64,000 nt of DNA, taken from contig FAON01000003.1 in assembly GCA_001485605.1 (NCBI GenBank), positions 1 to 64,000 of the forward strand. Direction: 5' to 3'. The first letter of the stretch is position 1; each line of letters starts with the position of its first letter. The notes beneath the pieces were generated by a model. It had not been told where the DNA came from. It saw only the letters and a program-made list of their open reading frames with translations, and did not search any database. This document shows, in pieces, positions 41,795-63,973 of the stretch. The stretch is from Candidatus Kryptobacter tengchongensis (GTDB lineage Bacteria > Bacteroidota > Ignavibacteria > Kryptoniales > Kryptoniaceae). The translations under genes were made by a program, and so were the position numbers.

Positions 41795-42301
41795 ATGTCT
41801 TACATACAAGAGTTGCTTTCAAAGTTAGAGGAAAAAAATCGGAACGAACCTGAGTTTCTTCAGGCAGCAAAAAGCTTTATATCATCGTTAGAACCGACAG
41901 TTAAAAGACATCCAGAATTTGTAAAAGCCAAAATATATGAAAGAATAATTGAACCAGATAGGATCATAGTATTCAGAGTGGTATGGTTAGATGATAAGGG
42001 AGATATACAAATTAATCGGGGATACAGAGTACAGTTTAACAACGCAATAGGTCCATACAAAGGGGGTTTAAGATTTCATCCTTCTGTAAATATAAGCATA
42101 ATGAAATTTTTAGCGTTCGAGCAAGTATTCAAAAATTCTCTTACAAACTTGCCTATGGGTGGAGCCAAAGGAGGATCGGATTTCGATCCAAAGGGTAAAT
42201 CAGATGCTTTGTCTAATATTTTTAGCCCTTGCCTTAAGATTATTGAAGGACAACAGCTCAACAACCATGATTTATATCATAAAAATTCTCCAGATGACTG
42301 A
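41795..42301 (+). pseudogene. gdhA: 3'-truncated glutamate dehydrogenase
   Basis: The first 139 residues follow hexameric glutamate dehydrogenase closely: FRVVWLDDKGDIQINRGYRVQF, AIGPYKGGLRFHPSVNISIMKFLAFEQVFKNSLTNLPMGGAKGGSDFDPKGKSDA. After that the similarity stops, near 42212, and about 30 unrelated residues lead to a stop. The whole Rossmann cofactor domain (normally to about 440 residues) is missing, so it cannot be active. The truncation marks the chromosome side of a rearrangement junction with the accessory block. Confidence 0.85.
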
Positions 42302-43947: not shown

Positions 43948-46437
43948 CGTAATACCCCAATTTTTTCAAAAATTCCTCTAATTTCTCAACTTCTTTATCT
44001 CTCTCCTCCCTTAATTCCACAAGAGAAACCTTATATTTATCCCAAAGATTTTCAAAAATTTTTACAAGCTCCTTTTTCTCTGCATTTAGGTATTTCTCAA
44101 GGTAGTTCTCAATGGTTAAATAAAACTTTTCTAAAATTAAATCCTTTGCTTCATCTTCAGTCAATTCTTCCCTTTTTTTAGCTATAAGCTCTTCAAGTGC
44201 TTTTTCTTTATTTTTAAGTTCTCTCTTAACCTTATTCAATTCTTTATTTTTTTCTTCAATTCTTTGATGTCGTTGCCATAGCTCTTTAATAGTTTCTCTT
44301 GCCACATCCGATAAAGGCTCATTATTAAATTTGTATACCCTCGTAACTAAATTATTGTTCCACTTTTCCTCCTTAGGCAAAAGTAGAATATCCCTTATCT
44401 GCTCTTTTATATAGTCCATTACTCTTTTTGCTGTTTTTTCTCCATATTCTTCTTCATCCCAATCCTCAACTTCTTCTAAAATATCACTGACTTCTGCCTC
44501 AATCTGTGTAATCTTTTCTTCTATTTATTCAATCTCTTGTAATTCAGATTTAAAAAACTTTTCTTTTATAATCTCATCCTCAATCAGGTTTTTACTCCAG
44601 CCAGCGGAGATTATTGATTTAAAATCATATTTCAAATCTTCCCACCAATTTACAAATACACCAGCAACTTTAAACTCATCAAGCACACCAAGGGGCAAAA
44701 GTTTCTCCTTTAGTTTCTTTATACCGATGTTCCTAAACCCCCACAAGTTACTATTTCCCCTAAGCCCCACAATCATCGCTTTTATTTCCTCCCACCATTC
44801 CTTTAATTTTTTCATATGTTCAGATAATATTACCTTTAAATTTTCATTGTTTTCAATTATTTCCCTTATTTTGATTTTGTCATCAATGGTAAATTCTAAA
44901 TATCTATCACCCTTTTTTCTTAGTAAAATATAAGGAGAAACGCCAAATTTCTTAAATGTCTCACCGTAAAGCTCTAACTCTTTCTTTGGCACACCACCAA
45001 AAATGTGGGCATGAATATCTTCCATCTCAGGGTCTGGAGAGTTATCCACATATCTACGAATATTTAAATTAAAATCGTTTTCCTCTATTTCCTTAATATC
45101 CACAAGCCTAGAATATTTTGGTATTTCCCTCTTTGAATGAAAAACTGTGACAATCTTTTCAATATCCTCTGGTCTTAGATAGTTCTGATTTCTTCCCTCT
45201 CCATATTCTTTATCTGCATTTATAAAAAAGATTTTATTTTTTAAATGATTTGGTTTGTTTTTATTAATAACAATTATGCAGGCTGGAATTCCCGCATTGT
45301 AAAAGAGTTTTGGTAGCAAGCCAATAATTGCCTCAATAAGGTCATCTTTTACTATTCCCTCTCTTATATTTTTTCCTGTCCACCTCTGAATAAAACTCCA
45401 TGGGGCATAACAGTTGCCATTACTCCATTGTTTTTCAAACTTGCAATCATATGCTGTAAAAACATTAAATCAGCCTTTTTTCCTGTCTCCGGAGTAAATC
45501 CATATTTAAATCTTTCTGGAAATTGCATATTTGCACGAGAATAATTCTGTGAAAAGGGCGGATTTGCCAGAATTCTGTCAAATTGTTTTATGTATCCGTT
45601 CTCTATAAATTGCGGTTTGGTTAAGGTGTCTTCGTTTTCAATGTGTGCGTCTGGTATATCATGGAGAATCATATTCATTTTGCATATGGACCAAGTAAGC
45701 CCGTTAAGTTCCTGTCCATATAGCCCTAAATTTCTTGGATTTTGTCCTTGCTCTTCAACATAATTCCTCGCTTCAATAAGAAAACCACCAGATCCAACTG
45801 TGGGGTCATAAATGGTCATACCCTCCTTAGGATTTACAAGACGAACCATTAATTTTTTAACATGTGGCGGAGTATAAAATTCACCCCCCTTTTTCCCTGC
45901 AGAGTCCGCAAACTGTTTAAGTAGATACTCATAAGCTGCCCCAAGCAAATCAGGAAACTCAAAGTCTTCGTTGGTAAGCCTATATTTATTAAAGTGATGA
46001 ATAAGGTTAATAAATTGCTGATCTTTTAGTTTTGTCTTCCCTTTTACTGCGTTAAAATCAATATGTTTTAAGACACCCTCAAGTTCTGGGTTTGCTTCCT
46101 CTAATGCTGCCAAAGCTTTGTTTAAATGATTACCAACATCTTCCTTTAAATTGAGTATATTCTCCCATCTTGCTTTCTCTGGAACAAAAAAGGTATCTCC
46201 ATAAGAATTAGGGTCTTCTAAAAGCTCATTAATTTGCTCTTCAGAAAAACCCTGAGATTTAAATTTTTCTTTCAATTCCTGCCTTTTAATTTCAAAAACA
46301 TCAGAAACACGCTTAAGGAATAGCATACCAAAGATATATTCCTTGTATTCAGAGGCATCCATCTTGCCCCTGAGGATATCGGCAGCCTTAAATAAGTATG
46401 TTTCAAGCTCTCTTAAGGTTATTTTTTGGTTATTCAT
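43934..46437 (-). pseudogene. hsdM: Type I modification methyltransferase subunit, disrupted
   Basis: Read as one gene this is about 834 codons. The first part (46437 to 45364) has [19 protein letters not shown], the SAM motif [19 protein letters not shown] and the catalytic NPPF ([11 protein letters not shown]). It ends at [11 protein letters not shown], where a one-base loss in an A6 tract (plus-strand T run 45369-45374) shifts the frame. The next frame continues [16 protein letters not shown] and PKLFYNAGIPACIIVINK to a TAA at 44525-44527 (probably CAA originally). The same frame resumes beyond, through the coiled C-terminal region to 43934. The two lesions make a single active protein unlikely unless slippage or sequencing error is involved. 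Confidence 0.85.
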
Positions 46438-46831
46438 GCTATCCTCCCTTGGATATAATCTTTAAATTGTCCCAAAAGGCTCATCCCTAAGAGACCCCCC
46501 AAGAGGTCCACAGGACCTTTGAGGTTTTGCTGAATTTGTCCAATAAAGTTTTTCAGCGAAACAATCCACTCTGGACTGAAAAAGTTTTTTAAGCAATTCC
46601 TGAAACCTTTGAATCGCCCCTCCCGAAAGAGATCCCTTAGCCTCCATATATTGATATTCTTTTTTATTAACATTTATGTAAAATTTAAAACACAATATTA
46701 AAAAAATCAAACCAGCGAATCAATCCCTTTAAGTTGGACTTTCGCCAAATCCATACATAATCACTTCGCCGACTCAACGGACAACTTCACCAGCTTCAGA
46801 AATACTTAAAGGTGAGTAAAAAATTTCCCCA
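46438..46831. repeat. Spacer with GC-rich palindromic repeat segments
   Basis: The region upstream of hsdM contains GC-rich, partly palindromic words of the type scattered through the accessory block, such as GAGGTCCACAGGACCTTTGAGG near 46502-46522 and CCCGAAAGAGATCCCTTAG near 46620-46640. Open frames here are read through the repeats and do not resemble proteins. No hsdR was found. Confidence 0.5.
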
Positions 46832-47132
46832 ACCCTCCCCCTCTCTAAAAACTTAGAGAGGGGGCCAGGGGGTGAGTCAAAAAATTAATTTCCCCTCTCT
46901 ATTTATAGAGAGGGGCAAGGGGTGAGTCTAAAAGATAAACCAAAAAGGGGTAAGTCAAAAACTAACTTTTCCCCCTCTCTAAAAACTTAGAGAGGGGGCC
47001 AGGGGGTGAGTCAAAAAATTAACTTATCCCTCCCCCTCTCTAAAAATTTAGAGAGGGGGACTTAGAGGGGGTGAGTCAAAAAATTAATTTCCCCTCTCTA
47101 TTTATAGAGAGGGGCAAGGGGTGAGTCTAAAA
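46832..47132. repeat. Tandem hairpin array upstream of parA
   Basis: Five units of about 50 bases, each a strong palindrome followed by a GGGGTGAGTC tail. Type A stem CCCCCTCTCTAA-AAAC-TTAGAGAGGGGG occurs at about 46842-46864 and 46971-46997, with a close variant at 47033-47060; type B stem CCCCTCTCTAT-TT-ATAGAGAGGGG occurs at about 46893-46915 and 47091-47113. Spacing is near regular and a degraded half-unit lies at 46943-46960. The array could be a centromere-like or regulatory site for the neighbouring ParA, or REP-like. Confidence 0.7.
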
Positions 47133-47253: not shown

Positions 47254-48231
47254 ATGAAAAAATTTAAAATCAAAGAGTTCGCCCAACTCCTCGGCTACCA
47301 CCCCCAGTATCTACGAGTCCTCGAAAAAGAAGGCAAAATCCCACCAGCAAGAAGAGACCCGAAATCAAACTGGAGATACTACACACTTGAAGACCTGATA
47401 GAAGCCAAAAAACAACTCGGCATCCCAATAAACGAAAAACCAGCCGTCCAAGTCTTCATAAACTATAAAGGTGGCACAGGAAAATCAACCATCGCCTCAA
47501 ACTACGCCTATAACCTCGCTCAACTCGGACTAAATGTCCTCGCTGTAGACCTCGACCCCCAGGGACACTTAACACGAGCACTCGGCATCCCGGATGAAGC
47601 GTCAAGAAATTTACCAACTATCATAGACGGAGTTATAAACGGCGACATATCAAAATCTATAATCTCAATCAAAAACGACCTCCTGCACCTCATACCAAGC
47701 AATGTCAACCAGACTGCATTTGAAAAATATCTCCAGCAACAAAATATAGCCGTGGAAACCAAACTATACAAAATGCTCCAGCCCATACTCCCTAAATATA
47801 ACTACATCATCATTGACTGCGCCCCGAGCGTCTCACTAACAAACATAAACGCCATGGTTGCCGCAGACGATATCATAGTCCCGGTCATCCCGGACTTCCT
47901 GTCCTACGACGGACTGAACCTGCTCTTCAAAGATATATCAGCACTGAAAGAAAACGCAACCCTCTACCACGCAAGACAAATTAAAATCATAATAAACAAA
48001 TACGACCAACGACTATCCGTCGCAGATGTCCTGATAAAAACCCTACAGGAAGAATATAAAGATATGCTCCTTAAAACCATACTCCGACAGGACGCTACAG
48101 TTGAAAGAGCTCAAGCCAAACTCTTAACAATTTTTGAATACGCTAGAAGAAGCAAATTCGCACAGGACATCACAAGCTTCACCAACGAAATGCTACAAAT
48201 TGAATCACAAATAACAATAACCCAAAACTAA
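47254..48231 (+). CDS. parA: ParA-family partition ATPase with N-terminal MerR-like helix-turn-helix
   Basis: ParA ATPases segregate low-copy plasmids. The N-terminal 55 residues (IKEFAQLLGYHPQYLRVLEKEGKIPPARR...WRYYTLEDL) form a MerR-type winged helix, so the protein may also bind DNA and repress its own promoter. The ATPase follows: deviant Walker A INYKGGTGKSTIASN, LAVDLDPQGHLTRALG, and YIIIDCAPSVSLTNINAM. An ATG at 47227 is a second possible start; 47173 is excluded by the promoter. No separate parB gene is adjacent, but the large replication gene follows after 12 bases. Codon use is C-rich, unlike the G-rich genes to the right. Confidence 0.9.
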   Translation: MKKFKIKEFAQLLGYHPQYLRVLEKEGKIPPARRDPKSNWRYYTLEDLIEAKKQLGIPINEKPAVQVFINYKGGTGKSTIASNYAYNLAQLGLNVLAVDLDPQGHLTRALGIPDEASRNLPTIIDGVINGDISKSIISIKNDLLHLIPSNVNQTAFEKYLQQQNIAVETKLYKMLQPILPKYNYIIIDCAPSVSLTNINAMVAADDIIVPVIPDFLSYDGLNLLFKDISALKENATLYHARQIKIIINKYDQRLSVADVLIKTLQEEYKDMLLKTILRQDATVERAQAKLLTIFEYARRSKFAQDITSFTNEMLQIESQITITQN

Positions 48232-48243
48232 CAAAATTGCCCC

Positions 48244-50172
48244 ATGGCTAAAAAAGATAAAAAATCAAAAAAAACTACCAGATCCCGGAAAAAATCACAC
48301 TCCAGAGACGAATACATTGGCTTTAAGCTCGTAAAACCAGTCCCCCAATCCGAACTATTACCCGACTACGAAAAAGTCAAAAACTTGAACCTACCCTCAG
48401 CCCTGAAAGCCAGCTATATAGTCTCTCTTATACCTAAAGAAACAATTGAAAATCAATCAGATAATAAAATAATTGAACGAGACCAGTCTCAAATTGATAC
48501 CAGTATCAAAACGATACCAGTATCAAATTTAGACCAGTATCAAGATGATACCAGTATAAAAACGACACCGGTATCAAATTTAGACAAACCCCAGACTGAT
48601 GCCACCCCCAAAGAAACCGCTGAATCCACCCGAACCTCCACAAAAAAGAGAAAAACACCCGATAAATCAATCGCCCCAATCAAAATTAAACAAATCCCAG
48701 ATCTCACAAACGAAAAAGTCAAATTTAAACCAGGTTTCTTCTCACAATGGGAAATATCCATATTCAACGAACTAAGAAAAATCCTCTCAAACTCCGAATT
48801 TAAAATCTATACAGCACTCTTTGAAGAATCCTGGACATACGGAAGAAACTTAACAAATATAATCGGATTCAAAACACTCTCCGAAAAAACAGGACTCGCA
48901 AGAGCTACAGTCATACGATCCATAGAAAAACTCATAAGAAGAAAAATCATAGAAAAAAGAACATCCTTCAACAACCTCGGAACTATCTACAAAGTAAATC
49001 TCCCAGAAAGCGCCGAAATCCAGTTCCAGAACCAGGAAAACCCCCAGTCGGCGAAGCGATCACTTTCGGGAAACGACCCACCCGAAAACCAGTCTCAAAA
49101 TGATACCAGTACTGGTATCAAAATGATACCAGTACTAGTCTCAAAAAGATACCAGTCCCCCAAAAATTTGAGCGAAGAAACAATTGAAAATCAATCAGTT
49201 TCAAAAAATCAAGACATATATAATACATATAACTATATACATATATATAATACAGAAGAAACAATTGAAAATCAATCAAAACCAGTAATCGCCCCATTTA
49301 AATTAAACGATGAAGACAAATTCATCTTTGAAAACAACCTGATCAAAATCCTCACGCCAGAGGAAATAAAAAACACACTTAAAGCAAAACCATTCTCACT
49401 TAAAGAAGAAATCATAGAAATGCTCATACAATCTGCACCCCCAGAACTCCTCTCGCTCAAAATCCACAACGCCATCTTCAACTACAGAAAAAACCTGACC
49501 AAAAAACCAGGCGAATGGCTCATACTGTCAATCTACAACAACTACAAAACAACTAAACAATTTCTAAACTACCTGAAAGAAAAACTCCGATCAACCCAAA
49601 AAACAATACCGACAAACCCACTTGACGAACACATGATAAAAACAGTCTTCGGATACAGCAGAAAATTCCTCAAAGTGATCCCGACGAAAGAAGTGCTACA
49701 GAAAGAACTGCAAAGATTTGACATACCTGAGCAGATGATAAGTAAAATAATTAACACATATCCACCCGAATACATCTTCTTCCAGATCCTCAGAGCAGAC
49801 TTTGAAAGACCACGGCTCAAAGACCCGGCATCATGGCTTGTAAACGCCATAACAAAAGTTTATAAACCAAGCAGGGAATTCGCACAAAAAATTGAACAGC
49901 AGATAAAACAAATTGAGGAAGAAAAAGCAAGGGAAGAGAAAAACAGAAAAATTGAAGAGGAAAGGATAAAAACGCAAAAAGCACTTGAATTTTTCAACTC
50001 CCTCCCGCAAACCCAGAAAGAAGAAATACTTAAACTCGCACAGCAAATGTTAAACGAACTTAACATAACCCCCGAAACCCCCGGCTACAAAATAAACCTT
50101 GAATACAAAATAGCAAGCATAATCATTACTAAGTTCAACCTCCCGGAAAAAGAAAAAAACAAAGAAAAATGA
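48244..50172 (+). CDS. Putative replication initiator with internal iterons
   Basis: A 642-residue, Lys-rich protein. Residues about 165-255 form a winged-helix domain of the phage replication protein O / RepA type (ISIFNELRKILSNSEFKIYTALFEESW, LSEKTGLARATVIRSIEKLIRRKIIEK). The N-terminal 100 residues contain a 17-residue repeat (DTSIKTIPVSNLDQYQ, DTSIKTTPVSNLDKPQ) that is the protein-level reading of 17-bp DNA repeats, and ETIENQS recurs three times. A low-complexity spacer follows the winged helix, then a C-terminal helical region (about 360-560) and a charged coiled coil (KIEQQIKQIEEEKAREEKNRK). Position next to parA and the iterons inside the gene suggest a Rep protein whose own gene holds the origin, as in lambda O. 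Confidence 0.7.
   Translation: MAKKDKKSKKTTRSRKKSHSRDEYIGFKLVKPVPQSELLPDYEKVKNLNLPSALKASYIVSLIPKETIENQSDNKIIERDQSQIDTSIKTIPVSNLDQYQDDTSIKTTPVSNLDKPQTDATPKETAESTRTSTKKRKTPDKSIAPIKIKQIPDLTNEKVKFKPGFFSQWEISIFNELRKILSNSEFKIYTALFEESWTYGRNLTNIIGFKTLSEKTGLARATVIRSIEKLIRRKIIEKRTSFNNLGTIYKVNLPESAEIQFQNQENPQSAKRSLSGNDPPENQSQNDTSTGIKMIPVLVSKRYQSPKNLSEETIENQSVSKNQDIYNTYNYIHIYNTEETIENQSKPVIAPFKLNDEDKFIFENNLIKILTPEEIKNTLKAKPFSLKEEIIEMLIQSAPPELLSLKIHNAIFNYRKNLTKKPGEWLILSIYNNYKTTKQFLNYLKEKLRSTQKTIPTNPLDEHMIKTVFGYSRKFLKVIPTKEVLQKELQRFDIPEQMISKIINTYPPEYIFFQILRADFERPRLKDPASWLVNAITKVYKPSREFAQKIEQQIKQIEEEKAREEKNRKIEEERIKTQKALEFFNSLPQTQKEEILKLAQQMLNELNITPETPGYKINLEYKIASIIITKFNLPEKEKNKEK
48481..48575 (+). repeat. 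Six 17-bp iterons inside the rep gene
   Basis: GATACCAGTATCAAA-type units recur every 17 bases: the GTATC core (or a variant) lies at 48486, 48503, 48520, 48537, 48554 and 48571. The first is GTCTC, the others GTATC or GTATA. Each unit is itself partly palindromic (GATAC...GTATC). Exact 17-bp spacing is typical of initiator-binding iterons. Confidence 0.75.
49089..49156 (+). repeat. Second iteron cluster with an 18-bp perfect palindrome
   Basis: GATACCAGTACTGGTATC at 49102-49119 is a perfect palindrome. The same GATACCAGT half-site recurs at 49125 and 49148, exactly 23 bases apart, with a partial site at 49089. These share the GATACCAGT word with the 48.5 kb cluster. Confidence 0.75.
49177..49278 (+). 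other. Candidate DNA-unwinding region flanked by 21-bp direct repeats
   Basis: Two exact copies of a 21-bp repeat (GAAACAATTG...ATCAATCA) at 49177-49197 and 49258-49278 flank a nearly pure A/T stretch (49213-49252, words such as TATATAATACATATAAC). A third copy lies at 48439-48459, upstream of the first iterons. Direct repeats plus AT-rich DNA beside iterons is the standard layout of a plasmid or phage origin. Inferred, not shown. Confidence 0.6.
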
Positions 50173-51793: not shown

Positions 51794-51897
51794 TTAAATG
51801 TCACCGGCAAAACCCGGAAGACCCTGGGAAATCCTTAAGACCTTTGGGAAAAGCAAGCAAAGTTTATATATTTTATTAAAAACTTTTGAGAAATAAA
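51794..51897. repeat. Spacer with palindromic words
   Basis: Contains CCGGCAAAACCCGG and GGGAAATCCTTAAGACCTTTGGG, in keeping with the GC-rich mosaics of this block. The first might act as a weak terminator hairpin. TATATT near 51867 may serve as the -10 for the ABC operon. Confidence 0.4.
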
Positions 51898-52731
51898 ATG
51901 GCTCTGTTAGATGTTAAAAATTTGAAGGTTTCATTTAAAACTGCGCGCGGGATATATAATGCAGTTAAAGGCGTAAGTTTTAAAATAGATGAAGGCGAGG
52001 TTTTTGCCCTCGTTGGAGAGTCCGGCGCCGGTAAGTCAATAACCGCAAGGGCAATCTTAAGATTGGTCGGCGATAACAGTATAATTGAGGGTGAAATTTT
52101 ATGGAAAGACCGAGATTTATTAAAACTGGATGAAAAAGAAATGCGAAAATTACGGGGAGCGGAAATAGCAATGGTATTTCAAAATCCACAAATGGCTCTT
52201 AATCCCGCCTTCACAATTAAAAAACAGTTTGAAGAGGTAATTAAACTTCACAACCCTGGACTTACAAAGGATTCAATAATTGAAATGATGAAAAATTTAC
52301 TTGGTTTGGTTCAGGCTGAGCATCTTTTCAGTAGGATAGATGATTATCCTCATCAGTTCTCAGTTGGCGAGGCTCAAAGAATTTTTTTAGGAATGGTTTT
52401 AGCCTGTAAACCAAAACTGTTGATCGCTGATGAACCAACCTCAGGACTTGATGTGACAGTTCAATCTGAAATACTTTCTTTGCTTAAAGATATCAGGGAA
52501 AAATTTAACACCGCAATCTTGCTTATTTCACATGATTTAGCAATAGTTTCCTCCATTGCCTCAAGAATTGCAGTAATGTACAAAGGTGAAATCATTGAAT
52601 GTGATGTTCCTGAAAAGATCTTTCTGGAACCACAGCACAGCTATACAGAGAAGCTGATTAACTCCATACCTGTTCCAAAAATCTTATTTGCGAACAAAAT
52701 AAATAAAATAAATAATGAAGATAGTGTATGA
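51898..52731 (+). CDS. Peptide/nickel-type ABC importer ATPase
   Basis: A 277-residue ABC ATPase of the OppD/DppD type that energises uptake from the periplasm. ATG 51898 is preferred over an upstream TTG. Walker A is GESGAGKSITARA, Walker B LLIADEPTSGLDVTVQ, and the C-terminal PQHSYTEKLINSIP segment is the oligopeptide-type tail. The ABC signature is degenerate: FSVGEAQRIF in place of the usual SGG-x-x-QR. Only one ATPase is present; typical Dpp/Opp systems have two, so it may act as a homodimer. It is the first gene of the nine-gene run. Confidence 0.9.
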   Translation: MALLDVKNLKVSFKTARGIYNAVKGVSFKIDEGEVFALVGESGAGKSITARAILRLVGDNSIIEGEILWKDRDLLKLDEKEMRKLRGAEIAMVFQNPQMALNPAFTIKKQFEEVIKLHNPGLTKDSIIEMMKNLLGLVQAEHLFSRIDDYPHQFSVGEAQRIFLGMVLACKPKLLIADEPTSGLDVTVQSEILSLLKDIREKFNTAILLISHDLAIVSSIASRIAVMYKGEIIECDVPEKIFLEPQHSYTEKLINSIPVPKILFANKINKINNEDSV

Positions 52732-53942
52732 GCGTTCCAGCTGGTTCAAAATCCGGTTTCATATCGCCCTTAATTGCGACTAATTTGAGGCTTTATGAAT
52801 TTATCAAAGATTTGAGGAAAAATTTTATTAAATATGAACTTTACAGGTTGAAGGTCCTTGGAATTTACATTAATGATTTTTGTAATTTGAATTGTAAACA
52901 TTGTTATTATCAGATACCTAACAGAATTAATTTTAACCCGATTTCCCTGGACAGGGTTAAGCTCGCACTGGATAAAGCTATAGATTCTGGCGTGTCGCTT
53001 TTTGCTTTCGTTGGAAAGGAAGTCTTCATCCCAGGTGAGTTGATAGGTGAAAGAACAATGGAGTTAATGAAGTTCCTTGTTGAAAGGAGAAATAGAAATA
53101 AAGAAATAGTCATTGGAGCTGTGACAAATGGGGTCTTGATTGATAAGTTTTTTGACAGGCTAAGAGACATAAAGCTTGATTACATTGATTTCTCAATAGA
53201 TGGGTCAAATGCCAGAGTCCATGATGAGTTGAGAGGTTATGGGACATTTTCAAAAGTGATAAGGAATCTGGAATATGGATTACATAAGGGAATTGCAGAT
53301 AAAATTTTTATCTCATCAACCCTCTACAGCAGCAATATTGATGATTTGATTAACATTTTCAATTTTTCAAGCAGATATGGAATAAGGTATTTTAATATAA
53401 CGCCAGTTGTAGCTATAAAGGGAACTGAACTTGGAATTTCAGTTGCCGATCTGATTAAGTTTATAAATAGAATTCCAGAAAAGTTTGATAAGCTGAAAGT
53501 CAATTCCCCGGTGTTAGTTGTGCTGGATTTGGATTCTTATATTGTTAAAAGTTTATCCAGGGCGATGTGGGAGCTGATGGACATGCAGGTGTTCATAGAT
53601 AGGGTTAATAATTTGCTTTTGTTCAAGAATCTTGTCGGCTCAACGACCTTGTGTATAAGAATTAGCCTGCCAGACCCCTGTGCGGGATACGGCTGTATCT
53701 CCGCCGACGGCTTGTTCTTCAACAAAGGCGGATGCTTGTTTATGAAACCAGGTTATGAAAACTTAGCGCTGGGTAATCTGTTGAAGGATGATATGTCAAG
53801 CATTATAAGCAGGGCGGAAAAGTTAAGCAAAGGAATCTTCGCTGAACCCTATTCCACCAACCTTGATGTTTTTTCTTTAACTTCCGGTGAACTTTTAAAC
53901 TTAATTGAAGGAGGAGGCTATGAATTTCCAAAGATTAATTAA
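52728..53942 (+). CDS. Radical SAM protein with SPASM-like C-terminal cysteines
   Basis: A 404-residue radical SAM protein. ATG 52728 overlaps the ATPase stop (ATGA). FCNLNCKHCYYQIPN holds the CX3CX2C cluster motif (CNLNCKHC), near residue 50. A C-terminal Cys cluster (LCIRISLPDPCAGYGCISADG, FNKGGCLF) is spaced like a twitch/SPASM auxiliary cluster, often linked to peptide-modifying enzymes. The barrel is of normal length between. Its position inside an ABC importer operon is unusual; the substrate could be the imported compound or a peptide not found here. It overlaps the start of the binding-protein gene by 23 bases. Confidence 0.85.
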   Translation: MSVPAGSKSGFISPLIATNLRLYEFIKDLRKNFIKYELYRLKVLGIYINDFCNLNCKHCYYQIPNRINFNPISLDRVKLALDKAIDSGVSLFAFVGKEVFIPGELIGERTMELMKFLVERRNRNKEIVIGAVTNGVLIDKFFDRLRDIKLDYIDFSIDGSNARVHDELRGYGTFSKVIRNLEYGLHKGIADKIFISSTLYSSNIDDLINIFNFSSRYGIRYFNITPVVAIKGTELGISVADLIKFINRIPEKFDKLKVNSPVLVVLDLDSYIVKSLSRAMWELMDMQVFIDRVNNLLLFKNLVGSTTLCIRISLPDPCAGYGCISADGLFFNKGGCLFMKPGYENLALGNLLKDDMSSIISRAEKLSKGIFAEPYSTNLDVFSLTSGELLNLIEGGGYEFPKIN

Positions 53943-55563
53943 ATTCTGGGGCATCTTACCCGTGATTTTGTTTATTATATTTAGTTCCTGTAAAACGAAA
54001 AAAGTTGAGAAAAATATAATTTATGAGGCGATATTATCAGATCCCAGAAGTTTTGACCCCAGAGATCAGGTTGATGCTGAAACATATGGAATTATGTATA
54101 CAATTTATAATACGCTGGTTGAGATGGACGATTCGTTAGTAATACAGCCAGCAATTGCTGAAAGATGGGAAACAAAAGATTTCAAAGAATGGAAATTCTT
54201 TATAAGGGATGGTGTTTATTTTCATCCCGATCCATGTTTTGGTTCAGCAGGAACGAAAAAGCTGACCGCTTATGATGTGGAATATTCGCTTAACAGATCT
54301 CTGAAACCTGGAGGAGTTGGAGCTTTTATGTTAACTGATATCGTTGAAGGAGCTGAAGAAGTTAACCAAGGAAAGGCAGAGAAAGCATCCGGAATTTTCG
54401 CTGTTGATTCCACTACACTCGTGATAAGGTTGAAACAGCCCTACGGAAAATTGTTAGAAAGGCTGGCAACGCCGTTTTTCTTCATAGTCCCAAGAGAAGC
54501 TGTTGACTATTATAAAGATGAATTCCCGCGCCACCCCGTTGGTACAGGAGCATATATGTTTGAAAGATATGAGCCCGGAAATGCTGTTTTCTTGAAGAAA
54601 AATCCACTGTTCTGGAAAAAAGATAATGACGGAAAAAGGTTGCCATACCTGGATGGTTTGGTTTTTAAAATCGTCCGAAATCCACAACTCGCTTTAAATG
54701 AGTTTTTGAGCGGAAATCTGGATGCTGTTGAGGTTCAACCAGTTTTCGTTGATCTATTATTCGAAAACGGGCGCTTGAAAAAGGAGTTCCAAAAGTACAA
54801 AGTGGTTGAAAATATAGCTCTTGATGTCCATTTTCTGGCGTTTAATTTTAAAGAGAAAATTTTCAGTAATAAAAACTTCCGGCAGGCGTTAAATTATGCA
54901 ATAGATAAAAGGGTTATATGTGAGAGAATACTTAATAATTTAGCAACACCAGCTATAGGTATTTTACCACCAGGGGTTTATTCCGATGTGAAGCGAAAAC
55001 CAGTTTATGAGTTAAATAAGGAAAAAGCAAAGGAAAAACTTAAATTAGCCGGATATGATGCCGGGGGAAAGGCACCAGAATTAGAATTGCACATAGATAA
55101 CAAACAAACAACCGAACTTATGGCTCAGTATGTTCAAGCAACTCTGAAAGAGCTGGGAATAAACATAAAGTTGAAGAAAACAGATTTCGGAACATTGTTA
55201 GCAGATGTTGTTAGCGGCAAATCAAAATTTTATTATATGTGGTGGGAAGGTACAGACCCAAATCCGGAGATATTCATGGTACAGTTTAAATCAAACCTAT
55301 TACCAGAAAAAGGTGGATACAATTTCGGGCGATATAACAACAAATCTGTTGATAACCTTTTTGATGCTGCGGTGCGTGAGTTAAAACCGGAGAAAGCAAA
55401 GAAATTATGGCTAAAACTGGATTCACTGCTTGTTGAAGATGCTCCATGGATATTTCTCTATCATACGAAAAGGGTCAGATTATTGCAGCCGTATATTTCT
55501 AATTACGATAACAACCCGATGCAAATAAGACGGTATTACACCACAACCAAATCCAGGCTTTGA
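53920..55563 (+). CDS. Peptide-type solute-binding lipoprotein (family 5)
   Basis: A 547-residue extracytoplasmic binding protein of the DppA/OppA family, which captures peptides or nickel-like complexes. A GGAGGA lies before ATG 53920. The signal peptide ends IFSSCKTKK (lipobox). Typical features are YEAILSDPRSFDPRDQVDAETYGIMYTIYNTLVE near the start, FKEWKFFIRDGVYFHP, GTGAYMFERYEPG and FRQALNYAIDKRVI. Length is normal. It overlaps the radical SAM gene 3' end and ends four bases before dppB. Confidence 0.93.
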   Translation: MNFQRLIKFWGILPVILFIIFSSCKTKKVEKNIIYEAILSDPRSFDPRDQVDAETYGIMYTIYNTLVEMDDSLVIQPAIAERWETKDFKEWKFFIRDGVYFHPDPCFGSAGTKKLTAYDVEYSLNRSLKPGGVGAFMLTDIVEGAEEVNQGKAEKASGIFAVDSTTLVIRLKQPYGKLLERLATPFFFIVPREAVDYYKDEFPRHPVGTGAYMFERYEPGNAVFLKKNPLFWKKDNDGKRLPYLDGLVFKIVRNPQLALNEFLSGNLDAVEVQPVFVDLLFENGRLKKEFQKYKVVENIALDVHFLAFNFKEKIFSNKNFRQALNYAIDKRVICERILNNLATPAIGILPPGVYSDVKRKPVYELNKEKAKEKLKLAGYDAGGKAPELELHIDNKQTTELMAQYVQATLKELGINIKLKKTDFGTLLADVVSGKSKFYYMWWEGTDPNPEIFMVQFKSNLLPEKGGYNFGRYNNKSVDNLFDAAVRELKPEKAKKLWLKLDSLLVEDAPWIFLYHTKRVRLLQPYISNYDNNPMQIRRYYTTTKSRL

Positions 55564-55567
55564 TAAT

Positions 55568-56497
55568 ATGTTAAGATATATTTTTAGAAATATATCTTCT
55601 TCTGCGATTAATATTATAACTGTTGTGATATTCACATTCCTGCTCATGAACATTCTCCCCAGCGATCCAGTTTTGATCAGGTTAGGGGCAAGGTATAACG
55701 AAAAAGATGCAAAGGCTTTGAAGGAAAAATATGGGCTTGATAAACCGCTATATTTTCAAATGTATAGATATTTTATAAATGTCTTGAAAGGTGAATTTGG
55801 TATATCTATAATCAGCGGAGAAAGAATAAACGAATTACTGGAAAAGCGATTTAGCAAATCATTTCTGTTAATCTTAATTAGCTTCCTCTTCTCCTTACCA
55901 TTTATTCCATTAGGGATATATGTTGCTTATACCGGGGAAAAAAGCACATCAATGAAAATTGAGCAGTTTTTTATCATGCTTTCCTCTATTCCACTTTTTG
56001 CTTTAAGCTCTTTAATAATTTTTACCTCATCTTTCCTTCTAAAGATATCTTTGACCTCCAGGACCGGCGTGCCGGGACTGGAAAATTACATCCTGCCCGC
56101 TTTTATTTTATCTATCACCCCATCTTTTTTAATTTTCAAAACAGTAAAGGATACGATGACATCCGTCCTGAAGCAAACTTTTATCCTGGCGCACAGGAGT
56201 TTCGGATTTGACGAAAATAAAATACTATTTAAATTCGCTCTAAAAAATTGCGCAATACCTGTTATCACCCTGCTCGGCAATCTCAGCGCTTATTACCTGT
56301 CTATGATTTATGTAGTTGAATATATGTTCTCCATCGGAGGCATAGGAACACTGGCTGTCTCCTCAGCGTTAAATTACGATACACCCGTGGTGATTGCAAT
56401 TGTAATAGTTGTCTCTATAATTTATAACACTGTAAATATATTTACAAAATTATTAATCCCGATCCTCGACAGGAGGGTGCTGTATGAAAGTCTATAA
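55568..56497 (+). CDS. Peptide-type ABC permease, DppB-like
   Basis: A 309-residue inner-membrane permease of the DppB/OppB family with about six predicted helices. The N-terminal LRYIFRNISSSAINI and LPSDPVLIRLGARY with KYGLDKPLYFQMYRYF are standard marks of this subunit, as is the later EAA-like loop (LAHRSFGFDENKILFKFALKN) facing the ATPase. The end overlaps dppC by 14 bases. Confidence 0.92.
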   Translation: MLRYIFRNISSSAINIITVVIFTFLLMNILPSDPVLIRLGARYNEKDAKALKEKYGLDKPLYFQMYRYFINVLKGEFGISIISGERINELLEKRFSKSFLLILISFLFSLPFIPLGIYVAYTGEKSTSMKIEQFFIMLSSIPLFALSSLIIFTSSFLLKISLTSRTGVPGLENYILPAFILSITPSFLIFKTVKDTMTSVLKQTFILAHRSFGFDENKILFKFALKNCAIPVITLLGNLSAYYLSMIYVVEYMFSIGGIGTLAVSSALNYDTPVVIAIVIVVSIIYNTVNIFTKLLIPILDRRVLYESL

Positions 56498-57275
56498 ACT
56501 AATTTTACCGCTCATCCTGCTATCTCTAATGATATCCTGGAGAAATTTGTTTTATGAGAACGCAATGAGGATTGATACAGAAAAAAGATTCAGTGCCCCA
56601 TCGCTCGAAAATCCATTCGGAACAGATGAACTCGGACGTGATTATTTCAGCAGGGTTATGGTGGGTCTATCAAATACATTAAGTATAGGTGTAATATCCC
56701 TTCTTTTTTCATCCGGATTGGGAATTCTGGTAGGAGGTATAAGTGGTATGGTGAAGTCGCGATTTGTCAAATATTTCTCCGAAAATATATTCAACATCAT
56801 CTGGGCAGTGCCCGGAATACCGCTCTTTGTCGCTATCTTTTCATATTTCCCGAGGTCTATATTTACAATATCCTTAGCAATAGCTTTATTCTCATGGGTT
56901 CCAGTTGCCAGAATGACGCGGTTTCTGATAGAAGCAGAGAAAGAAAAATTATACACGCTGACCCTAAAAGCATTTGGATTTCCTTACCTTAAAGTTGCAG
57001 CTGCAATTTTTAATAATATTAAAATGCCAGTGCTTATCTCCATTTTATCCATTTCACTTGACCTGATCGTAGCCGAATCAACCCTGTCATTCCTGGGCCT
57101 TGGGATACAATCACCAGAACCATCGCTCGGACAGATGATAAATACTTCACTTAATTACATTGCCCAGGCACCCTGGCTATTTTTATTCCCGACCACATTT
57201 TTAATCCTGATTATAGGTGGCTTGCTCAAATTCATAAATAAAATAGGGAAGGGTAAATATGTCCACGCAATTTGA
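56484..57275 (+). CDS. Peptide-type ABC permease, DppC-like
   Basis: A 263-residue permease of the DppC/OppC family. PFGTDELGRDYFSRVMVGLSNTLSIG is the hallmark, followed by the EAA loop (LTLKAFGFPYLKVAAAIFNN) and the LSFLGLGIQSPEPSLGQMI motif. Slightly short for the family (about 280-300). The start overlaps dppB by 14 bases and the stop overlaps the next, signalling gene by 17, so the transporter and signalling genes form one translationally coupled cluster. Confidence 0.92.
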   Translation: MKVYKLILPLILLSLMISWRNLFYENAMRIDTEKRFSAPSLENPFGTDELGRDYFSRVMVGLSNTLSIGVISLLFSSGLGILVGGISGMVKSRFVKYFSENIFNIIWAVPGIPLFVAIFSYFPRSIFTISLAIALFSWVPVARMTRFLIEAEKEKLYTLTLKAFGFPYLKVAAAIFNNIKMPVLISILSISLDLIVAESTLSFLGLGIQSPEPSLGQMINTSLNYIAQAPWLFLFPTTFLILIIGGLLKFINKIGKGKYVHAI

Positions 57276-60186
57276 ATCTATAGAGGCAGTTATCAAGCGT
57301 GGAAAAGATATAAAAATTAACTTAATGATTTTCGACCCGGGCGATTGCTGTTATCATACATATCTGAGCCAGGATGTTAAAAATTTGACTGATCAGGATT
57401 TGAATAAATTAACGGGGGAATATGAGAATAAGCCAAAAAAATTTAAAAATTGGGTGAATGAATGGGTAGAAGAAAACATCTCAGCTTATCAGGCAAATAA
57501 CCCGCGTGAAAAATTTAAGGTGACATTCTCAGCGCTACCTTCAAAAGAGGATTGGGATGTGAATGGGTTTTATCATACAATTTTTTATGATAAGAATTTA
57601 AGCAAATTTAATATTGAAAATATAAATGAATATACTAAAGTAACTTTATGGAAATATTACCCGGATAAGAATAATGATAAAGATGCGGAAATCAGTTGTT
57701 TTTCTAAAAATGCAGTTTCCAGTGAGAACGGGGACTTAATAAACAGAATGAAATATATAATGTTAATACAAAATCCTGAATATTACAGTATATACGAAGA
57801 TATATATGTTTCAATTCGGAGAAAATTGTTTGAGGTGAATCTTGAAAAATTTATATCTGTTCCAATTTTCATATATAATATATTCTATGGTATTGCGTTT
57901 GTAGCGGTTTCAGATGACGAAAATGCAGATAAAATAACCGAAAAAATGGGTAAACTTGAATCTGCGCTACCATTAATTAAATCAGCAATTCAAAATATTT
58001 TCATAACTGAGTTTGATAAACGCGTCTGGGGTCAGGTAGAAGAGTTCAGGTTGTTTGAAGATATAGTTCACGCGTTTTGCGAGAATATAAATTATCTGAT
58101 TAGGTGCGAAAGGCTTGAATGTAAGCTAAGTTATAGAGAGAATGGGAAAGAAATTAAAAAAATTGAAAGGAATTATGGGTGGGTTAACGATAAATTATTG
58201 TGGCGAAAAAAATTTACTTTAATTTCAAAGAACACAGGGCAGGGGAATTTTAATGGTATGGAAAATCTGGAAATAAATGTAAATGTAGAAGCCTGGGGGA
58301 TAAAAATTAATCTCTTTGTCAAAATCGCAGATGAAAATGCGTTGAATGGAAATAAAGATATGGTGAAGGAGAAAATAGTTCAGTTCATTGAACAAAAGAT
58401 ACGGGGCGTAATAGAGCCAGCTTATAAAATTTTAAAGAAAAACAGAAAATCAGCCTGTCTCGTGGTTTTATCAAGAAATTCAGCACATGGAATTGGAGCA
58501 AGGGTTTTAAGCTATCTGGCAAACAAGGGAGCACTTGCAGAATTTACTGAAAAATATATAAAGGATAAATTTCCAGACTTTTTTGAATATCTGCGTCAAA
58601 GGTTCAACACAACCGCGGATATAGCATTACAGGGGTTCAGCATACGAGTTCCCATGAACCTTGAAGATGAAATACTTTTTTTCAGAAATCGTCAGGATAT
58701 CCTTTTAGAAAAGATTGGGCGTGTGGAGGTTTGTATCCAGAATGAAAATAATTTGCTTATAGATATCCCGAACGATGTGTATGGGATGCATGCATTTTTC
58801 ATCATCCTTGAAAATATCATAAGAAACATAGAAAAGCACACGAAGAAAGATCCAAAAGATTTTAAGCTGGAGATTGAACTCAATAATTATAATAATGATT
58901 TAATTGAAGTCAATATTAAGCATAAATTTAAAGGAGGAAATTTTCCGTTGGAAAATATTCAAAATATTAAAAACTTTATAGAAGAACCAGTAGTATCAAG
59001 TAAAGGTAAACCAAGAGTAGGTGGTTGGGGGATAATGGAGATGAAAATTTGCGCTGCTTATCTTAGAGATATTAATCTTGAGGAAATTGATGAGCCACGA
59101 GAAGTGCCAATTCTTAAGGCTGAAAATGATGGTTGCTTCACATACAAAATTTATCTGTTAAAACCAAAGATAGCAAGCATGGTCCTGGGAGACAATATTA
59201 AAGTAGAAGAAGAGATAAAAAATAAATTAAAAAGTTTCGGGCTTGAATTTGTTATGCAGGAAAAAAAGAAAGAAATATTCAAGTATGGAACAAAAAGCGA
59301 GTTTTTGATCCTTTGCGGGGAAAAAGTCCAGAATAAAATGCCACAACCTTATGTGGAAATTTCTGAGTCTGATATGAAAAAAATAAAAAATATAAATAAT
59401 TTTTATGAGTTTTATGCATGGCTTTATAAAAAGTATATGAATCAGCTGGTAGAAAAACCTTCGGATTACTGTATCAGGATTTATATTAATGAAAAATATG
59501 ATTTTACTTTTAATGGGGAAAACTGGAAGAGAGAGGAATGTGATAATAATAATAATAAAAATCTTATTATCTTTGATAGTCACGCTTACCATTACAATGA
59601 GGAAAATTATTTTTACTATGAACCATATCCATCAACATCATCAACAGGTAGAATTATTGATAAGGTAATCGGGATAATAAATAATCAAATAAGCGATCAA
59701 AATTCATTGAATATATTAATAAGTACACTTCTCATATCGGCTGTGATTCCTGTAGTAATAGTAGATGAAAGGATTAATGAGATTGTTAAAAGAAGCAATT
59801 ATCCAGGGATAAAAGGAGAAATAAATATGAAAGATGCGCTTAAAAGAATGAGAATGGATATAATGGGTGAACTGGACGATTTGGAAGATTACATTAATCA
59901 GAACCAGATTCAGGAAAACCATGTTTTCATTGTACACCTGGGTTTGGTGGAAAAAAAAGCTGAATTATCAGATGTAGAAGATATAAAGAGATGGAAAGAT
60001 GGTTTTGAAGGAAAGGTAAATTGTAAAGGAAGATTAATATTTATATCGGATCGAGGGACGCCGCCAAATCTTCCAGATGGGAGCTTTTATCTCCCGTATG
60101 AGTCAATTCACTACGCTTTATTTTTCTCCATAGGCAAAATAAAAGTTTATAAATTACTGCAAACAGTAAGAAAAATCAGGAGGTAA
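57259..60186 (+). CDS. Histidine-kinase-like ATPase protein of a signalling cluster
   Basis: A 975-residue cytoplasmic protein with no signal peptide or membrane span. Residues about 1-390 are an unrecognised, probable sensor region. SRNSAHGIGARVLSYL (about 405-420) resembles the dimerisation/His-phosphotransfer segment. A GHKL ATPase follows: N-box FIILENIIRNIEKH (about 515), G-box GGWGIMEMKICAAYL (about 590). Residues about 660-975 form an unrecognised C-terminal region with conserved-looking VVIVDERI, FIVHLGLVEK and FISDRGTPPNLP. I recall this pairing (SRN-x-x-H, GHKL, DERI, GRG-x-P-x-NLP) in uncharacterised bacterial ATP-binding proteins that sit beside response regulators. Start overlaps dppC. 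Confidence 0.65.
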   Translation: MSTQFESIEAVIKRGKDIKINLMIFDPGDCCYHTYLSQDVKNLTDQDLNKLTGEYENKPKKFKNWVNEWVEENISAYQANNPREKFKVTFSALPSKEDWDVNGFYHTIFYDKNLSKFNIENINEYTKVTLWKYYPDKNNDKDAEISCFSKNAVSSENGDLINRMKYIMLIQNPEYYSIYEDIYVSIRRKLFEVNLEKFISVPIFIYNIFYGIAFVAVSDDENADKITEKMGKLESALPLIKSAIQNIFITEFDKRVWGQVEEFRLFEDIVHAFCENINYLIRCERLECKLSYRENGKEIKKIERNYGWVNDKLLWRKKFTLISKNTGQGNFNGMENLEINVNVEAWGIKINLFVKIADENALNGNKDMVKEKIVQFIEQKIRGVIEPAYKILKKNRKSACLVVLSRNSAHGIGARVLSYLANKGALAEFTEKYIKDKFPDFFEYLRQRFNTTADIALQGFSIRVPMNLEDEILFFRNRQDILLEKIGRVEVCIQNENNLLIDIPNDVYGMHAFFIILENIIRNIEKHTKKDPKDFKLEIELNNYNNDLIEVNIKHKFKGGNFPLENIQNIKNFIEEPVVSSKGKPRVGGWGIMEMKICAAYLRDINLEEIDEPREVPILKAENDGCFTYKIYLLKPKIASMVLGDNIKVEEEIKNKLKSFGLEFVMQEKKKEIFKYGTKSEFLILCGEKVQNKMPQPYVEISESDMKKIKNINNFYEFYAWLYKKYMNQLVEKPSDYCIRIYINEKYDFTFNGENWKREECDNNNNKNLIIFDSHAYHYNEENYFYYEPYPSTSSTGRIIDKVIGIINNQISDQNSLNILISTLLISAVIPVVIVDERINEIVKRSNYPGIKGEINMKDALKRMRMDIMGELDDLEDYINQNQIQENHVFIVHLGLVEKKAELSDVEDIKRWKDGFEGKVNCKGRLIFISDRGTPPNLPDGSFYLPYESIHYALFFSIGKIKVYKLLQTVRKIRR

Positions 60187-60187
60187 A

Positions 60188-60673
60188 ATGAATAACGAGA
60201 GAAAACTCATTGTTTTAATTACTATGTTTTACAATGACAATCACGTTTTCACAAATACAGGAGGAGGACAAAATCAAGCTATCATTTTTTTCCCTGATAA
60301 AAATCAGCCAGATGTTTTGCTTGTAAATGAGCTTAAGTGGAGATATAAAAAAGATGAATTAAGAGAAGAATTAGAAAAGATTGAAGCATCAACTTATTAT
60401 GTCTCATTGCATAAATCACAGGAAGACTCGGACAAAGAAAATCAGAGAGAATTTTTTAAGGAATTTGCGGAAGAAGGGGTGAATTTAGTTTTCATTGAAG
60501 AACATCATAATTCCGGACAGGTATATGATAAGCTGAAAGAACTTACAGAATATTATAAAAGTAATGGAAGAGATCAACAATACTTGAAAATTTTGGGAGA
60601 AGTTTATGATTTGTTTGAGCTTGAGCGGAAGTTAAGAAATCACCATAACGAGCTGTGTGGAAAAACAAAGTGA
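60188..60673 (+). CDS. Unknown protein, 161 residues
   Basis: I do not recognise this protein. It starts one base after the upstream stop with AGGAGG just before the ATG. The sequence suggests a compact alpha/beta fold: strand LIVLITMFYND, a central VNLVFIEEHHNSGQVYDKL that could be a strand-helix with paired His, and C-terminal helices rich in Leu, Lys and Glu. No catalytic motif can be assigned. The GTG start of the next gene overlaps its end by 17 bases, so it is a fixed part of the signalling cluster. Confidence 0.75.
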   Translation: MNNERKLIVLITMFYNDNHVFTNTGGGQNQAIIFFPDKNQPDVLLVNELKWRYKKDELREELEKIEASTYYVSLHKSQEDSDKENQREFFKEFAEEGVNLVFIEEHHNSGQVYDKLKELTEYYKSNGRDQQYLKILGEVYDLFELERKLRNHHNELCGKTK

Positions 60674-62492
60674 AAAATTTAAATCAGGAATAAAAAGAAG
60701 CCAGTTCAATATGATGGTTATAATTTGCAATCAGGAGTTAAACGGGGAAATAGCAAAAATTTTTCTGAATAAAACAGATTATAAAATTATAAACGAAGAA
60801 GCAAAGATTGATATAAATGAGGTTAAGGGTGCGAAGGTTTTCATAATACAGCTTGAGTTTATCGTTAGTAAAGAAGGAAGAAAAAACTACATTGATCTTT
60901 ACGGAATTGATATCGCAGAAAAATTTAGAAAAAATGGGATAAAGGCACCGATAATTTTTACATCTTTTTCTGAACTGGATGAGATAAAGACAGATATCCC
61001 CCTTCTGCTGGAACCCACTTCACATGATTTTATAAAGTTCCCGTTCACATATCAGGAATTTGAAGAAAAATGCAAAAAACTTAAAGAGTTAACGGATGTG
61101 AAACTTGTTGATGTTAAAAACCATCTTGCGGTTTCTGATGCAACTTTAAAAGATAAAATACATGATTTAAAAAATAAATCTTTATCAGGGGAACTTAAAG
61201 GTCTGGATGTTTACAATGAGTTAAAAGATGTTGTCCTAGGTTCAAAATCGGAAATATTGGAAAAAATTGAGAGCGAAAGTTCAATTAAATATGATGATTT
61301 AAATATTCTGGAAAAAGAATTAACCAAAAAGATTGGCGAAGATGGACATATTTCTGTTAGAGAACCCAGGGGGAAGTGGAAGCTTTTAATTGTTGATGAT
61401 GATGAATCAGTGTTAAATAAATTAGATGAAGCCTTTAAGAAGTTTAAAATAAATGTTGAAAAAGCAAAGAACGGTGATTATGCCCTCAATATAATTCAAA
61501 ATGACAGAATAAATGAAATAACAGTGGTTTTGGTTGATTATCGCCTGAAAGGAAGCGATGGAAAATGGCTGGATAAACAAGGGTATGATATAATATACGA
61601 GATAATGCATAACTCCACAAATCTGGTCTCCTTCTTCGGGCTTTCAGCTATAAGCCCGGAAGTTTTGATTGAAATGCAAAACAAATATGGATTTAAAGTT
61701 CACACATTTCCAAAGTCTTTCTTAGATACAGAAGATGGGCTTAGATATATCGCAAATGAAATAATAGAGAAAGGAGATTCTGTATATGAGTCAATCATTA
61801 ACATACCCCGGGCAAAGAATTGGAAAAACCTGAAAAAATGGTACAAAATATACCGAAATCATGAAAATTATAATGAGTGGGAAGAAGAGATCTCCTATAG
61901 GGCTTTCTCTGTCATTAATAATATTAAGAATATGGAAGGAGAAAAAATTTCTGACATTTTTAAAGGTGTCCAGGCGAAACTTGATAATAATGATATGGAA
62001 AACATGGAGATTTTTCGCAAGAAGCTTCTCGCAAGACGTGTTTTAGTAACTGCTGAAGTTATTGAAAAAATATCATGGCAAATTGATAATGAAAAGTATA
62101 GGGGAACCATGATTGAACGTCTTTTAACAAGAAAAAATGGTAAAAAGTATAATAAGAAGAAATTATATAATGATTTAGCCCTAACAGAGGAAGATATAAG
62201 TGAGGCGAGAATTCTGGTTGAAGAAAAAAGATTTTTGAAGGAAAAATTGAATATTGATATTGATGTGTTAAGTCAGGAAGCGCTGGATCTTTTAATCAAG
62301 TTATGTAATGCAGCACTTGAAGTTTTAGAAAATAAAGAATATAATATTACTGATGAAGAAGGGATCATTAAAAATCTTGAAAGTCAAGATCCAGAATATA
62401 TTAAAATACTTAAAAAAATTTTAAATGAAAAATATAAAAACCGCTTTAGTATACTGAAGGAAAGTCAATTAAAAAAATTCTTATTTGATTGA
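60657..62492 (+). CDS. Response-regulator-like protein with degenerate and intact receiver domains
   Basis: A 611-residue protein starting at GTG 60657 (Met at 60711 or 60714 is a possible alternative). Residues about 20-150 look like a receiver fold lacking the acidic site: VIICNQELNG replaces the DD pair, and FIIQLEFIVS replaces the phospho-Asp strand, while IKFPFTYQEF keeps a K-P-like end. Residues about 240-370 form an intact receiver: LLIVDDDESV, VLVDYRLKGSDG with the phosphorylatable Asp, GLSA, and TFPKSF with the conserved Lys. The C-terminal 230 residues are helical and match no output domain I know. No DNA-binding domain is visible. It overlaps both neighbours. Confidence 0.78.
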   Translation: MEKQSEKFKSGIKRSQFNMMVIICNQELNGEIAKIFLNKTDYKIINEEAKIDINEVKGAKVFIIQLEFIVSKEGRKNYIDLYGIDIAEKFRKNGIKAPIIFTSFSELDEIKTDIPLLLEPTSHDFIKFPFTYQEFEEKCKKLKELTDVKLVDVKNHLAVSDATLKDKIHDLKNKSLSGELKGLDVYNELKDVVLGSKSEILEKIESESSIKYDDLNILEKELTKKIGEDGHISVREPRGKWKLLIVDDDESVLNKLDEAFKKFKINVEKAKNGDYALNIIQNDRINEITVVLVDYRLKGSDGKWLDKQGYDIIYEIMHNSTNLVSFFGLSAISPEVLIEMQNKYGFKVHTFPKSFLDTEDGLRYIANEIIEKGDSVYESIINIPRAKNWKNLKKWYKIYRNHENYNEWEEEISYRAFSVINNIKNMEGEKISDIFKGVQAKLDNNDMENMEIFRKKLLARRVLVTAEVIEKISWQIDNEKYRGTMIERLLTRKNGKKYNKKKLYNDLALTEEDISEARILVEEKRFLKEKLNIDIDVLSQEALDLLIKLCNAALEVLENKEYNITDEEGIIKNLESQDPEYIKILKKILNEKYKNRFSILKESQLKKFLFD

Positions 62493-63436: not shown

Positions 63437-63484
63437 GACCTTAGGAGAGTCCATAGGACCTTTGGACCTTAGGGAAATCCCTCT
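63318..63484. repeat. GC-rich palindromic mosaic
   Basis: About 165 bases of short palindromic, GC-rich words: AAAGGTCCGAAAGGACTCCC, CCTAAGGCCCAGAGGGC, then two near-identical 20-bp units containing GAGTCCATAGGACCTT (63428-63445 and 63446-63463). Similar words lie at 46.5, 50.3, 50.9 and 51.8 kb. The left part is inside the 62489 frame. Confidence 0.7.
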
Positions 63485-63538
63485 TCCTCCCCCTCATCAT
63501 CACTAAAGCCCTGCCCCTGAGCCGGAAAAGAAACTCTC

Positions 63539-63575
63539 GGTAACTTTGAGTAACTATTTTTCTTTTATTTATTCT
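63539..63575 (+). promoter_or_regulatory. Operator-like GTAACT pair with promoter (copy 2)
   Basis: GGTAACTTTGAGTAACT repeats the 50380 motif with one difference in 22 bases. TTGAGT (63546-63551) and TATTCT (63570-63575) are spaced by 18, as in copy 1. It lies upstream of the 104-residue gene. Confidence 0.55.
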
Positions 63576-63610
63576 ATAAAAAGCCAGAAAACAAAAGTTA
63601 TTTCAAACTC

Positions 63611-63925: not shown

Positions 63926-63973
63926 CCTTTCAAAAATTATTTTAATTGTAGAAGTAACAAAATTGAAGAAAAA

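Follow-up and report, generated by a model that had tools for sequence, protein, structure and literature searches.

An O-like initiator gene with a probable replication origin inside it, next to parA on a Kryptonia-binned contig

In-gene origins and the parA–rep gene pair

Origins that lie inside initiator genes are already known from lambda O, pSK41 and repABC. In lambda, the origin occupies the middle of the initiator gene O, with iterons beside an AT-rich tract, and the O protein is dimeric (PMC7466680). In pSK41 and its relatives (RepA_N), the origin boxes are central within rep and the protein region which they encode is dispensable (PMC5703833). A third arrangement is found in repABC, where a ParA-type gene lies upstream of repC, which holds an AT-rich origin; plasmids with such origins have been described as ‘uncommon but not exceptional’ (PMC3155836).

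The locus analysed here lies in a stretch of 64,000 nucleotides, called the window below, which is the first 64 kb of the 75,555-bp contig C3 (genome G000) in a bin of the Kryptonia lineage. Coordinates refer to the window unless another locus is named, and all features listed are on the forward strand. The original prediction placed an origin within the reading frame of a winged-helix protein beside parA, and this gene arrangement is confirmed: rep occupies 48244–50172, with the ParA gene just upstream. We read rep as an O-like initiator gene with its own theta-type origin inside, and we assign a probability of about 0.86 to this reading as a whole mechanism. In silico, the support for an in-gene origin is good: it comes from the repeats, their conservation at the DNA level, the displacement of one array in a relative, the association with O-like genes and a correlation between one residue and one base.

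The parA gene (47254–48231, ATG at 47254) encodes a ParA-type ATPase with a MerR-like N-terminal helix-turn-helix. Profile matches include Pfam AAA_31 (3e-39), MerR (8e-8) and phrog_164 (5e-58), and the match to TIGR03453 (3e-32) lies under the cut-off of that profile. The AAA_31 match together with a KGGTGKS motif identifies a ParA Walker ATPase, one of the components of a class I ParABS locus. No separate parB or repB gene was found between parA and rep.

The rep product has 642 amino acids. Its winged helix (amino acids 156–259, codons at 48709–49020) is modelled by AlphaFold with a pLDDT of 81.7, and the top BFVD match of the isolated domain is ‘Bacteriophage lambda, GpO, N-terminal’ (E 1.7e-5, TMq 0.73). 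The recognition helix starts near R220 and A221 is the specificity residue. At the sequence level, the winged helix matches PF04492 (Phage_rep_O) with E 3e-4 and 21.6 bits against a cut-off of 28.7, and TIGR01610 with 21.3 against 45.5; the match of Rep to the O-like phrog_678 is also weak (3.5e-4). As regards strict membership of the O family, Rep agrees with it in fold and layout, while the sequence matches are weak and stay below the curated cut-offs of those profiles that have one. The layout in question, in-gene iterons after the DNA-binding domain and beside an AT-rich tract, is that of array 2 and the AT-rich stretch described below.

The C-terminal helical domain (49306–50169, pLDDT about 75–88 over most of its length) carries two KxPxxWLxxxI..Y..S/TxxF motifs and has no known relatives and no PDB match; a contact with the helicase or its loader is possible. 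A PDB sequence search with Rep gave zero matches. The full-length AlphaFold model has a mean pLDDT of 51, and a PDB search with it is meaningless. In this model, residues 63–166 and 247–354, which is where arrays 1 and 2 are encoded, are unstructured, and both arrays are predicted to fall in the codons of disordered linkers.

Repeat arrays within rep and its relatives

Array 1 (48479–48575) comprises six sites of the form arm3-ACC(A/G)GT-arm3′ with a 17-bp period, the arms being mostly GAT/ATC. Its cores lie at 48482, 48499, 48516, 48533, 48550 and 48567, exactly 17 bp apart, in agreement with the six 17-bp iterons that had been proposed. Array 2 (49085–49156) is composed of head-to-head ACCAGT/ACTRGT dyads with a 23-bp period (cores at 49088, 49105/49111, 49128/49134 and 49151). 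Here, the proposed 23-bp spacing stands, but the perfect palindrome (TGATACCAGTACTGGTATCA, 49101–49120) measures 20 bp, not 18. The AT-rich stretch with exact flanking repeats is also present as described, except that the repeats are 23-mers and not 21 bp long, and that a third copy, at 48437, had been left out. All three boxes have the sequence AAGAAACAATTGAAAATCAATCA with an inner dyad ATTGA-N3-TCAAT: box 1 (48437–48459), which precedes array 1, is an exact copy of box 2 (49175–49197) and box 3 (49256–49278). Between boxes 2 and 3 lies the AT-rich stretch (49198–49255), a candidate DNA-unwinding element which is the second-lowest 60-bp duplex stability minimum in the 64-kb window. Array 1 is located before the winged-helix codons, array 2 and the AT-rich stretch after them. 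No DnaA boxes were found in the replicon of the window; origins of such a kind can do without one.

The only Rep homologues found are those of Ca. Kryptonium thompsonii (G001, LDXX01000010) and of Ca. Thermokryptus RSWP10 (G005); the known Kryptonia-type set has three members in all, the window protein included. In Kryptonium, array 1 lies inside the gene and has ten units, while array 2 is absent from it. Array 2, one box and the AT-rich tail are instead located ~2 kb downstream, past two genes of which the first encodes a methyltransferase, where the DNA has no long ORF; this displaced segment is 83% identical to positions 49088–49257 of the window. The 3′ end of rep is repeated just beyond this displaced cluster (L011 5211–5262 and 7505–7555), which suggests that rep was once duplicated and that most of one copy may since have been lost. 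In Thermokryptus, the core and the spacing are retained and the GAT/ATC arms are replaced by TGC/GCA, TTC/GAA and similar pairs in both clusters; the encoded amino acids therefore differ and the symmetry of the DNA is kept. This arm switch is accompanied by an altered recognition helix, with an Arg at position 221 of the Thermokryptus protein.

Beyond these relatives, no close Rep homologues were found in IMG/VR, the plasmid set or the phage set. A scan of the phylum with the Rep alignment returned distant O-like genes alone, in G196 and G246, and the window is the only place among 395 genomes of this phylum with the triple ACCAGT-N11 pattern. In two further genomes of the phylum, the O-like genes (L042, L043) contain repeats ahead of an AT-rich stretch, built on another core. 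Kryptonia also harbor a second replication module (L012 4666–7147, G002:C16), which encodes a ParA, a 190-aa helix-turn-helix protein and a 377-aa winged-helix protein; the gene of the latter holds 21-bp palindromic repeats ATTGCTCAnnnTGAGCAAT at 6476–6559, followed by AT-rich DNA.

The repeats are genuine, and it is as DNA that they act. When synonymous codons were permuted with the protein fixed (1000 trials), neither the 17-bp self-match of the window gene (53/68, permuted maximum 50) nor its 23-bp self-match (36/40, maximum 31) was ever reached. The same holds for the 17-bp self-match in both relatives and for the 23-bp self-match in Thermokryptus (0/1000 each); the Kryptonium gene is devoid of the second cluster and its 23-bp value is therefore uninformative. 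As neither 17 nor 23 is divisible by 3, these are not repeats of the protein; that reading is ruled out by the permutations and by the noncoding copy of array 2 in Kryptonium. The original prediction would have fallen if relatives conserved the repeats at the protein level alone. The opposite was found: in the relatives the protein letters change, while the symmetry and spacing of the DNA stay. It is thus extremely unlikely that we are dealing with low-complexity protein linkers devoid of a DNA function, even though the codons of both arrays specify linkers predicted to be disordered, given the periods, the permutations, the conserved noncoding array and an arm symmetry that survives amino-acid changes.

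Site form and recognition in phage initiator genes

The DNA pattern alone was searched in 2.9 million viral contigs. The dyad pattern ACCAGTACTRGT-N11-ACCAGT occurs in two of them, both times inside an O-like gene that is followed by a DnaB-like gene (downstream genes read from sequence). Three ACCAGT hexamers at 17-bp spacing were found in 44 stretches, compared with a single one for a shuffled-hexamer control. The 16-bp spacing control gave 17 stretches, some of them in initiator genes too; the hexamer therefore carries more signal than the exact spacing, and the shuffled hexamer is the informative control whereas the 16-bp control is not clean. For 29 of the 44 stretches and the two dyad loci, 32 covering ORFs were scanned (one stretch was read on both strands). 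Matches to the O-like phrog_678 at E ≤ 1e-5 were obtained for 26 of the 32, which places about 24 stretches in O-like genes, several of the viral loci being near-duplicates. Many phages have a single in-gene array.

The proposal of a lambda-O-like origin inside an initiator gene is supported by the GpO fold match, the same DNA pattern in the O-like genes of unrelated phages, the DNA symmetry kept in relatives and the noncoding array 2 of one of them. In the open literature, queries combining ACCAGT with replication, phage and iteron retrieved an unrelated Photobacterium plasmid study alone. Fifteen of the 44 ACCAGT stretches have no covering ORF of at least 100 aa and are possible intergenic origins (L084, L085, L087, L095, L100, L102, L103, L106, L107, L113, L116, L118, L120, L122 and L124).

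The sites take the form arm3-ACCAGT-arm3′. In a de-duplicated set of 27 loci with 124 sites, arm positions 1, 2 and 3 are complementary in 60, 62 and 72 sites, respectively, compared with a mean of 31 to 35 and a maximum of 51 under the null. At position 4, complementarity is at background (33 sites, against 29), and the symmetry covers exactly 3 bp. The base next to the core follows the second residue of the recognition helix, the position of A221 in Rep. Where this residue is Arg or Lys, C stands next to the core in 11 of 11 non-identical proteins; where it is another residue, C is found in none of 13. All 24 proteins are concordant (Fisher 4e-7). Counted as distinct states per 50%-identity cluster, the figures are 6 to 0 versus 0 to 11, with a p value of 8e-5 that is the best of 120 tests and becomes ~0.01 once corrected. 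In all four clusters that contain both kinds of residue, residue and base switch in step.

This rule was set down before the phage genes of another collection were fetched. The held-out genes with Arg showed C by automatic reading of perfect sites (4/4: Vibrio phages 1.205.O, D186; phi2; SfV) and those without Arg showed other bases (5/5: Ab1656-2, Pm86, Acba_1, U7 and Kp4875-4), in a test that was not fully blind because the site definition was relaxed after a first look, from ACCAGT to AC-NN-GT plus the inter-site form; the remaining held-out genes yielded no site, and some single-site genes could be chance. On balance, we lean towards an origin grammar that is shared by O-like phage and plasmid initiators: in-gene, near-palindromic arm3-AC-NN-GT-arm3′ sites with a period of 17 or 23 bp, in which the Arg/Lys residue goes with C.

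From these patterns we infer site binding, melting, helicase loading, a role for ParA and activity of the window copy. A dimer of the winged helix would bind the near-palindromic 12-bp sites, which are placed every 17 bp in array 1 and as dyads every 23 bp in array 2. Bound Rep would then melt the AT-rich DNA enclosed by boxes 2 and 3, and its C-terminal domain would recruit the host helicase. The ParA encoded upstream probably aids segregation or control. The core is common to many phage O-like initiators. Specificity would be set by the arms, with C next to the core when the residue at the A221 position is Arg or Lys.

With an in-gene origin, inheritance and recombination treat the initiator protein and its site as a single unit. 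Protein and site change together across the three replicons compared here and some two dozen genes of phages, and four lineages switch helix residue and adjacent base in step. If this is true, sequence would suffice to find the origins of many uncultured phages and plasmids and to predict their specificity; should the grammar hold, the protein and its in-gene origin would switch specificity jointly and incompatibility groups would be predictable from sequence alone.

Genomic setting, alternative readings and known systems

In C3, chromosomal genes are located on both flanks of the parA–rep module. The codon usage of the two genes is unlike that of either flank and similar to that of the Kryptonium copy. 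The recA and uvrA genes of C3 are 59% and 56% identical to their Kryptonia counterparts, and the same bin holds its own Kryptonia copies of both, on contigs C12 and C10; C3 is therefore probably mis-binned. Judged by these two genes, it is probably a piece of another organism, another thermophile (window 1–42000 and 51886–64000), and a chimeric contig is possible. A comparison with an empty site via neighbouring genes is uninformative, because clear Kryptonia orthologues of the flanking genes are lacking.

The module is probably integrated in C3 and may be a relic. The original prediction of a self-contained replicon, possibly a plasmid or a plasmid-prophage, is not sustained by these flanks, by recA and uvrA genes foreign to the bin or by the integrated appearance of the module. 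It had also proposed a check for circularity, in which the ends of C3 showed no overlap. The Kryptonium contig (G001:C10) has no terminal overlap either and is also chromosome-like, with a glmS-like gene and capsule genes; in both contigs, a free replicating form is thus unsupported.

Several further features were noted to the left of rep. An N-terminal fragment of a glutamate dehydrogenase gene (gdh) lies at 41795–42300; similarity stops near 42205, the C-terminal part is absent and the fragment lies at the left edge of the foreign region. Left of the module, a type I restriction locus is broken, with hsdM split into two ORFs (44525–46437); the locus has an hsdS gene, and an hsdR gene was not seen near the split hsdM. 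Hairpin-forming repeat units (CCCCCTCTCTAAAAACTTAGAGAGGGGG and variants) occupy 46830–47130, directly upstream of parA.

How much of this module acts as an origin, and whether it still does, can be read in other ways. The arrays might be a centromere (parS) for ParA, with the winged-helix protein as a ParB-like adaptor and replication starting elsewhere. The position of parA directly upstream of rep without an intervening parB would suit such a role, tandem iterons are able to act as centromeres, and the PDB fold matches of the winged helix include TubR, a plasmid segregation protein. However, the same site layout recurs in phage O-like initiator genes ahead of DnaB-like helicase genes, a melting minimum lies beside array 2 and lambda GpO is the closest fold among the viral ones, which together make the centromere unlikely. 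An in-gene origin remains the preferred reading, and it is compatible with a refinement in which labour is divided: array 2 and the AT-rich stretch would form the origin, and array 1 would be accessory, serving handcuffing copy control, autoregulation or partition. The geometries of the two arrays differ (17 bp versus 23 bp), and in Kryptonium array 2, a box and the AT-rich stretch lie apart from the gene with array 1 still inside. Many phages, on the other hand, have one in-gene array alone and such a division is therefore not required; we regard it as close to an even prospect.

A dead integrated remnant, whose origin no longer fires, would leave the identity of the parts untouched and concerns their present activity. 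The chromosomal flanks, the truncated gdh fragment, the split hsdM and the foreign codon usage point in this direction, whereas the intact frames of rep and parA and the well-preserved arrays point away from it, so that we entertain it tentatively, at somewhat less than even odds.

Among the described systems, lambda O with its origin is alike in the in-gene origin, the iterons beside an AT-rich tract, the winged-helix fold and an iteron number that varies among relatives, and rep with its origin probably works like it. Unlike lambda O, rep has another core sequence, two arrays, not one, around the winged-helix codons, additional 23-bp boxes, a 642-aa protein with an unrelated C-terminal domain, and ParA as the partner where lambda has P. 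The O-like and DnaD-like phage genes (phrog_678, phrog_270, phrog_391 and phrog_186) also combine a winged helix with in-gene sites downstream of it, either ACCAGT iterons at 17 bp or dyads at 23 bp, but usually have one array, encode about 290–320 aa and, in those read, have no adjacent ParA.

The likeness to pSK41 is in the origin boxes inside rep. These encode the middle of the protein in pSK41, whereas in the gene analysed here they encode two linkers around the DNA-binding domain, and Rep has no Pfam match to the RepA_N domain at E 1. With repABC, the parA–rep module shares a ParA-type gene followed by an initiator gene that contains an AT-rich origin, but it has iterons, which repC does not, and no parB/repB gene; Rep matches no RepC family among the Pfam and TIGR profiles. 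The Kryptonium copy, in which one array lies beyond the gene, suggests that coding and origin function have been separated naturally there. Compared with lambda O, pSK41 and repABC, what appears to be new is the layout with two arrays, its relocation and the recognition rule.
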